Assembly (NCBI RefSeq): GCF_017302985.1
Contig: NZ_JAFIMU010000007.1
Span: forward strand, 868,001 to 932,000
DNA: 64,000 bases
Direction of reading: 5' to 3'
DNA from: Corallococcus macrosporus
Lineage (GTDB): Bacteria; Myxococcota; Myxococcia; Myxococcales; Myxococcaceae
Shown here: positions 44,300 to 44,403 of the stretch, piece by piece
How positions within the stretch are numbered: position 1 is the first letter of the stretch
How the letters are laid out: every line of letters begins with the position of its first letter
Translations under genes and position numbers: made by a program
Notes under the pieces: generated by a model
Databases searched by the model: none
The model's input: only the letters and a program-made list of their open reading frames with translations
Told to the model about the DNA's origin: nothing

Positions 44300-44320
44300 G
44301 CCTTTATTAACGCGCCGGGT

Positions 44321-44361
44321 GGCGCTCCTTGGCAAAGGTCTTGCCTTCGCACCAAGGCGCC
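44321..44361. promoter_or_regulatory. Imperfect dyad between csgA and hemG starts
   Basis: GGCG..CCTTGG (44321-44332) faces CCAAGGCGCC (44352-44361), and inside it AAGG/CCTT pair around TCTTG. The centre is 42 bases from the csgA start and about 62 from hemG. It is a candidate shared operator. Confidence 0.4.
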
Positions 44362-44403
44362 CAGGGGTGCTCAACCCAGGACAAGGGTAGGAGTCGCAAC
44401 GTC

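Follow-up and report, generated by a model that had tools for sequence, protein, structure and literature searches.

The short stretch of DNA that separates csgA from hemG in Corallococcus macrosporus raises the question of whether an imperfect inverted repeat lying within it is a regulatory element placed between two divergent genes, or an accidental resemblance of neighbouring sequences. The window, that is, the whole 64,000-nucleotide stretch that was analysed, belongs to a genome of 9.8 Mb, and contains csgA at 43610..44299 on the minus strand (ATG at 44299; 229 aa) and, on the plus strand, a gene for a hemG-like protoporphyrinogen oxidase at 44404..45804 (ATG at 44404; 466 aa), leaving a divergent intergenic region of 104 bp (44300..44403) between the two starts. 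Both this arrangement and the gene identities had been proposed in a first-pass annotation made from the sequence alone, and both proved to be right, the identities being supported by Pfam, NCBIfam and comparison with genome G076.

SDR proteins carry an N-terminal TGxxxGxG nucleotide-binding motif, and csgA is the source of the myxobacterial C-signal. The product of the csgA ORF matches the Pfam family adh_short (1.9e-31), which makes it a short-chain dehydrogenase of the SDR family; it starts with MRYVITGASRGIG, it shares 75% identity over 229 aa with the CsgA of G076, and its gene has hemG as a neighbour, features that together assign it to CsgA, the C-signal SDR. The product of the hemG ORF reaches 303.6 bits against NCBIfam TIGR00562 (cut-off 97.85), and the HemG of G076 shows no difference along 453 aa from PDB 2ivd, the protoporphyrinogen oxidase of M. 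xanthus. The CsgA of M. xanthus GJV1 has 229 aa (PMC9746145), which is consistent with the csgA start used here.

The gene pair was surveyed in 96 genomes of the family, with thresholds of E <= 1e-60 for CsgA and E <= 1e-80 for HemG. CsgA matches were obtained in 65 genomes and HemG matches in 70, and the two genes are arranged head-to-head in 62, the window genome counted; three CsgA-positive genomes (G001, G044 and G046) do not have the head-to-head pair. The 62 pair genomes comprise 16 of group g1, which is the genus of the window, 27 of g19 (which includes Myxococcus and Pyxidicoccus records), two of g5 (which includes a Citreicoccus record), six of g3, seven of g7, one of g8, one of g20 and two of g21. 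All 62 intergenic regions were inspected, and an alignment of nine of the 16 genus sequences, unevenly cut, served for viewing only. The arrangement itself shows some variation. Seven of the 27 g19 genomes (L139, L142, L149, L153, L154, L159 and L165) have a gap of 158-160 bp between csgA and hemG, approximately 53 bp longer than the other members of the group, with the extra DNA located, as judged by eye, on the hemG side. Moreover, four genomes of one genus, with sizes of 9.5-12.3 Mb (G031-G034, L180-L183), contain hemG without an adjoining csgA and yielded nothing for CsgA at E <= 1e-60; one of these loci (L182) has, by eye, a pdxH-like ORF upstream of hemG and in the same direction.

The repeat had been described as extending over 44321-44361. 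A repeat does exist at 44324-44360, where a left arm (44324..44332) and a right arm (44352..44360) are complementary without gaps at eight of nine positions, around a loop of 19 nt. The outer part of the description, 44321-44323 and 44361, pairs solely across a bulge (by eye), and the repeat stands at chance level. Its gap-tolerant score was equalled in 178 of 500 dinucleotide shuffles; without gaps, 1486 of 2000 shuffles did as well, and 922 of 2000 when loops were restricted to 25 nt or less, so that the symmetry above chance expected of an operator was not found by any of these measures. Of the 61 other orthologous intergenic regions, 20 have an inverted repeat that scores at least as high.

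The sequence of the left arm can be accounted for by what precedes csgA. The word TTAAT is found before the csgA ATG in 59 of the 62 genomes, separated from it by 6 nt in 24 and by 7 nt in 35, and is absent from this position in three genomes of g20 and g21 (G080, G081 and G082); its background frequency is 11 per 1.6 million strand positions in G018, a genome of the same genus whose DNA is 70% GC. In the window, it forms part of a predicted csgA -10 box, GTTAAT (44306..44311, minus strand), which ends 6 nt before the ATG, and a predicted -35 box, TTGCCA (44330..44335, minus strand), is situated 18 nt from it. This hexamer, as TTGCCA in 42 genomes or TTGCCT in three, precedes the -10 hexamer by exactly 18 nt in 45 of the 45 genomes of g1, g5 and g19. 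Taking into account the conserved placement of both boxes, the left arm of the dyad would correspond to the spacer of the csgA promoter plus the edge of its -35, with which it has 3 nt in common, and RNA polymerase would most likely recognise TTGCCA-N18-GTTAAT for the transcription of csgA. Some results count against this promoter reading: the best -35 match is just 3/6 in 14 genomes of g3, g7 and g8, the three genomes of g20 and g21 have no TTAAT at 6-7 nt, and a generic sigma-70 scan of 44200-44500 returned no promoter at threshold; GTTAAT does not have the A at position 2 that the scan demands.

The right arm, in turn, begins directly after a candidate hemG -35 hexamer. This position (44346..44351, plus strand) reads TTCGCA in the window and is placed 17 nt from a weak candidate -10, GCTCAA (44369..44374, plus strand). 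Outside g1, TTGAC is present on the hemG strand in 31 of 46 genomes, and its equivalent in g1 is TTCGCA (GTCGCA in G025), which precedes GCTCA by the same 17 nt in 13 of the 16 genomes; within the genus, the hemG -35 agrees poorly with the consensus, and the promoter can be assigned only weakly. A Shine-Dalgarno site, AGGAG (44389..44393, plus strand), can be read further on, and the hemG mRNA would have a short leader provided with it. The block TTCGCACTAAGGCGCC, located at 44346-44361 in the window with a C in place of one T, is found unaltered in 12 of the 16 g1 genomes and exceeds the length that a -35 of 6 bp needs, a fact that counts against a plain promoter reading; it is possible that this block is a genus-specific binding site. 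Another block on the hemG side, TGCAYGSTG, is present in all 27 g19 and both g5 genomes (L134, L135, L139-L165), and its longer form, GAGTGCACGCTGGT, is exact in 20 of the 27; a -10/-35 reading does not explain it.

A -10 box at 6-7 nt before the ATG places the expected start of transcription at the A of the csgA initiation codon. Thus, csgA transcription would start at this A, or a base or two from it (predicted at 44298..44300 in the window, minus strand, within 1 nt of the A), and its mRNA would be leaderless or near-leaderless and devoid of a Shine-Dalgarno site. A -10-like box approximately 10 bp before the start, as leaderless genes have, is present in 59 of the 62 genomes, the box not being a strict TANNNT. 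Shine-Dalgarno energies of -6 or below were obtained for one of the 62 csgA genes, versus 49 of the 62 hemG genes, this last figure being probably a lower bound because the match to some hemG genes, for example those of g7, starts several codons within the gene. The csgA ATG is kept in all 62 genomes. In 57 of them no stop interrupts the reading frame over the preceding 60 nt, so that a longer csgA reading would be compatible with the distribution of stops, and the codons found there differ between groups in the nine genomes that were printed. In 35 genomes, none of them from g1, an in-frame ATG exists within the TTAATG of the -10 box; a transcript beginning 7 nt past the box would leave this ATG outside the csgA mRNA.

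Taken as a whole, the region is likely to be an ordinary compact divergent promoter, in which TTGCCA-N18-GTTAAT drives a leaderless or near-leaderless csgA, hemG is transcribed with a leader, and the dyad is accidental. The original papers on csgA are those of Hagen and Shimkets (1990) and Li et al. (1992), which may give a mapped csgA transcription start. None is given in the portions considered of PMC4320627, PMC3160421, PMC9031893, PMC9746145 and PMC11559036.

Three other explanations have to be weighed against this one. It could be proposed that each arm is an imperfect half-site within an operator specific to Corallococcus, at which a dimeric regulator would control both promoters, for instance by repression across the two -35s. 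Such a proposal is favoured by the fact that the blocks on both sides are well kept as sequences, the left core (CCTTGGCAAA) being present in 16 of the 16 g1 genomes and the block containing the right arm being exact in the 12 mentioned above, including bases outside the -35 hexamers, and five of the nine pairs (the CC.T.G core) are kept in 15-16 of the 16 genomes, without variation able to test them. What has not been kept is the pairing, which reaches 8/9 in the window genome only and falls to 7/9 in four genomes of the genus, 6/9 in ten and 5/9 in one, with no compensating double change that would preserve any pair. The second base of the right arm, C in the window, is T in all the other 15 genomes, where it breaks DNA pair 8; the neat symmetry is thus private to the window genome, and the dyad is never the best-scoring inverted repeat among those listed for the other 15. 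Beyond the genus, the left core is found in both g5 genomes and in 11 of the 27 of g19, and the right core (CYAAGG) in none of the 46 regions outside g1, which indicates that the two cores are not inherited as a unit. Furthermore, 28 bp separate the centres of the arms, which amounts to about 2.7 turns of the helix, and the arms would not lie on one face of the DNA. An operator is, in the light of all this, very improbable. The first-pass annotation, which treated the dyad as a possible regulatory element between both genes, had made its own proposal depend on conservation in those relatives that share this gene pair; the symmetry is not kept in them (5-7/9 within the genus, 0/46 right cores outside it), and the dyad is, on this sequence comparison, refuted as a conserved element. 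Most likely, it is an accidental resemblance of nearby sequences, one being the csgA -35 region and the other the stretch adjoining the expected hemG -35, made sharp in the window genome by a single T-to-C difference. That the dyad might instead work at the RNA level, as a hairpin serving for attenuation, for termination or as a leader structure in a hemG transcript or an antisense one, is scarcely credible: the arms do pair partly in the predicted minus-strand fold, and the G-T of pair 8 in 15 of the 16 genomes would read as a G-U wobble in plus-strand RNA, yet the folds predicted for the two strands of the 104 bp are no better than those of shuffled sequences (z 0.14 and -0.51), no terminator-like site was found, Rfam yielded nothing at E values of up to 1, and double changes restoring the pairs are missing here as well.

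The third explanation concerns csgA alone, and holds that TTAAT is not its -10, that the mRNA has a normal leader and originates from a more distant upstream start, and that the conserved sequence has another purpose. The control of csgA from distant DNA in M. xanthus (PMC4320627), the lack of the consensus A at position 2 of GTTAAT and the upstream opening of the frame in 57 of the 62 genomes would all be in keeping with it. However, TTAAT remains fixed at 6-7 nt from the ATG in 59 genomes while its flanks diverge, the 18-nt spacing to TTGCCA/T is constant in 45 of 45, 61 of the 62 genomes do not have a good Shine-Dalgarno site for a leadered csgA mRNA, and DNA located far upstream could act on the same csgA start. 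An upstream start is, for these reasons, considered unlikely.

A dispersed repeat was also discarded as the nature of the region: a 131-bp query gave 25 non-self matches in its own genome, all of 15-27 nt and with E above 2.

The occurrence of -10-like boxes next to initiation codons was analysed in 800 kb of G018 (L189-L228), considering the first ATG of ORFs with 150 codons or more and taking the expectation from gaps of 20-39. TANNNT was found 51 times at 6-11 nt before the ATG, versus approximately 17 expected, an excess that falls to 19 versus approximately 8 when boxes with stop-like triplets are left out. No such excess was obtained with the controls ATNNNT (68 versus 62), TTNNNA (50 versus 67) and AANNNT (41 versus 44), and it was mild with TANNNA (29 versus 17). 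The control GGAG gave no excess at 6-11 nt either (277 versus 275), which indicates that many of the ATGs considered are internal and that the set has little resolving power. The genus probably has a class of genes that are leaderless or have short leaders, in agreement with PMC3160421, and such genes may be common in Corallococcus. As regards the box of csgA itself, TTAAT was not found within 30 nt before any long-ORF ATG of the 800-kb sample, and csgA-like boxes at 6-8 nt are not clearly enriched ([GT][TA].AAT, 2 versus 2.7 expected; TT.A.T, 8 versus 4.35); the csgA-type box is too rare in this sample for testing.

The first-pass annotation had also stated that csgA control extends far upstream in M. 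xanthus, and this is supported by the literature, since full csgA-lacZ expression needs DNA to -930 (PMC4320627, citing Li et al. 1992). In the same organism, a putative MrpC site detected by ChIP-seq is located at -407 from csgA, which is +327 of the divergent MXAN_1293 (PMC4320627), and these two offsets imply 79 bp between the annotated starts. An ATG placed 27 nt before the conserved hemG start is exactly 79 bp from the csgA ATG in nine of the 27 g19 genomes, G076 included, a geometry by which MXAN_1293 fits hemG. The further suggestion, that csgA control would reach into hemG in the window genome, found no supporting trace in the genus, the results on synonymous diversity and MrpC being compatible with such control. 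At 4-fold sites, the 5' part of hemG is no less diverse than the remainder of the gene, either in the 16 g1 or in the 27 g19 genomes; if anything, it is more diverse. A scan of the 1100 bp that precede csgA found no perfect MrpC consensus in 15 of the 16 g1 genomes, nor in G076. The intergenic region of the window contains no match to this consensus (TGTYN8RAC), and the FruA consensus GGGYRN4-6YGGG, as used in PMC4320627, was not matched on either strand in any of the 62 regions between the two genes. In 10 of the 27 g19 genomes (e.g., L140, L143, L146), and in none of the 16 of g1, the predicted csgA -35 is spanned by a sequence, TGTCCTTGGCAAAAC (at csgA -33), that fits the MrpC consensus perfectly, and MrpC may act directly at csgA in this g19 subclade.

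With respect to the meaning of these results, they remove a false lead, the dyad as such being no real feature, and replace it by a precise prediction, that in most of the family the csgA transcript begins at the start codon. Were this true, the addition of a leader or of a Shine-Dalgarno site to csgA would alter the control of a developmental signal. It could be speculated, with little confidence, that the csgA mRNA is leaderless throughout the family, that C-signal synthesis is thus tied to leaderless translation, and that starvation gains in this way a direct translational handle. A review describes a (p)ppGpp-dependent rise of leaderless translation under oxidative stress, the organism not being given in the portion considered, and states that an older model of leaderless regulation based on MazF has not been reproduced by other laboratories (PMC9031893). 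Such an effect, if it extended to csgA, would act beside the positive regulation of this gene by the stringent response (PMC4320627).

Compared with known systems, the locus shares with M. xanthus the csgA/MXAN_1293 gene pair and, as seen in G076, the spacing of the csgA promoter (PMC4320627), and differs from it in possessing the right arm of the dyad and the pairing. Sites of the CRP-family regulator MrpC (TGTYN8RAC; PMC4320627) occupy the equivalent of the left arm in the 10 g19 genomes referred to above, whereas the window matches three of the seven specified bases at that place. As for leaderless genes, they have been listed in eight of 33 delta-proteobacterial genomes, with a mean of 15.8%, in a study whose main text, in the portion considered, does not name myxobacteria (PMC3160421). 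The predicted csgA start resembles those genes in having a -10-like box that would direct transcription to the initiation codon and in lacking a Shine-Dalgarno site, the difference being that their box is TANNNT, approximately 10 bp before the start, and that of csgA is GTTAAT.
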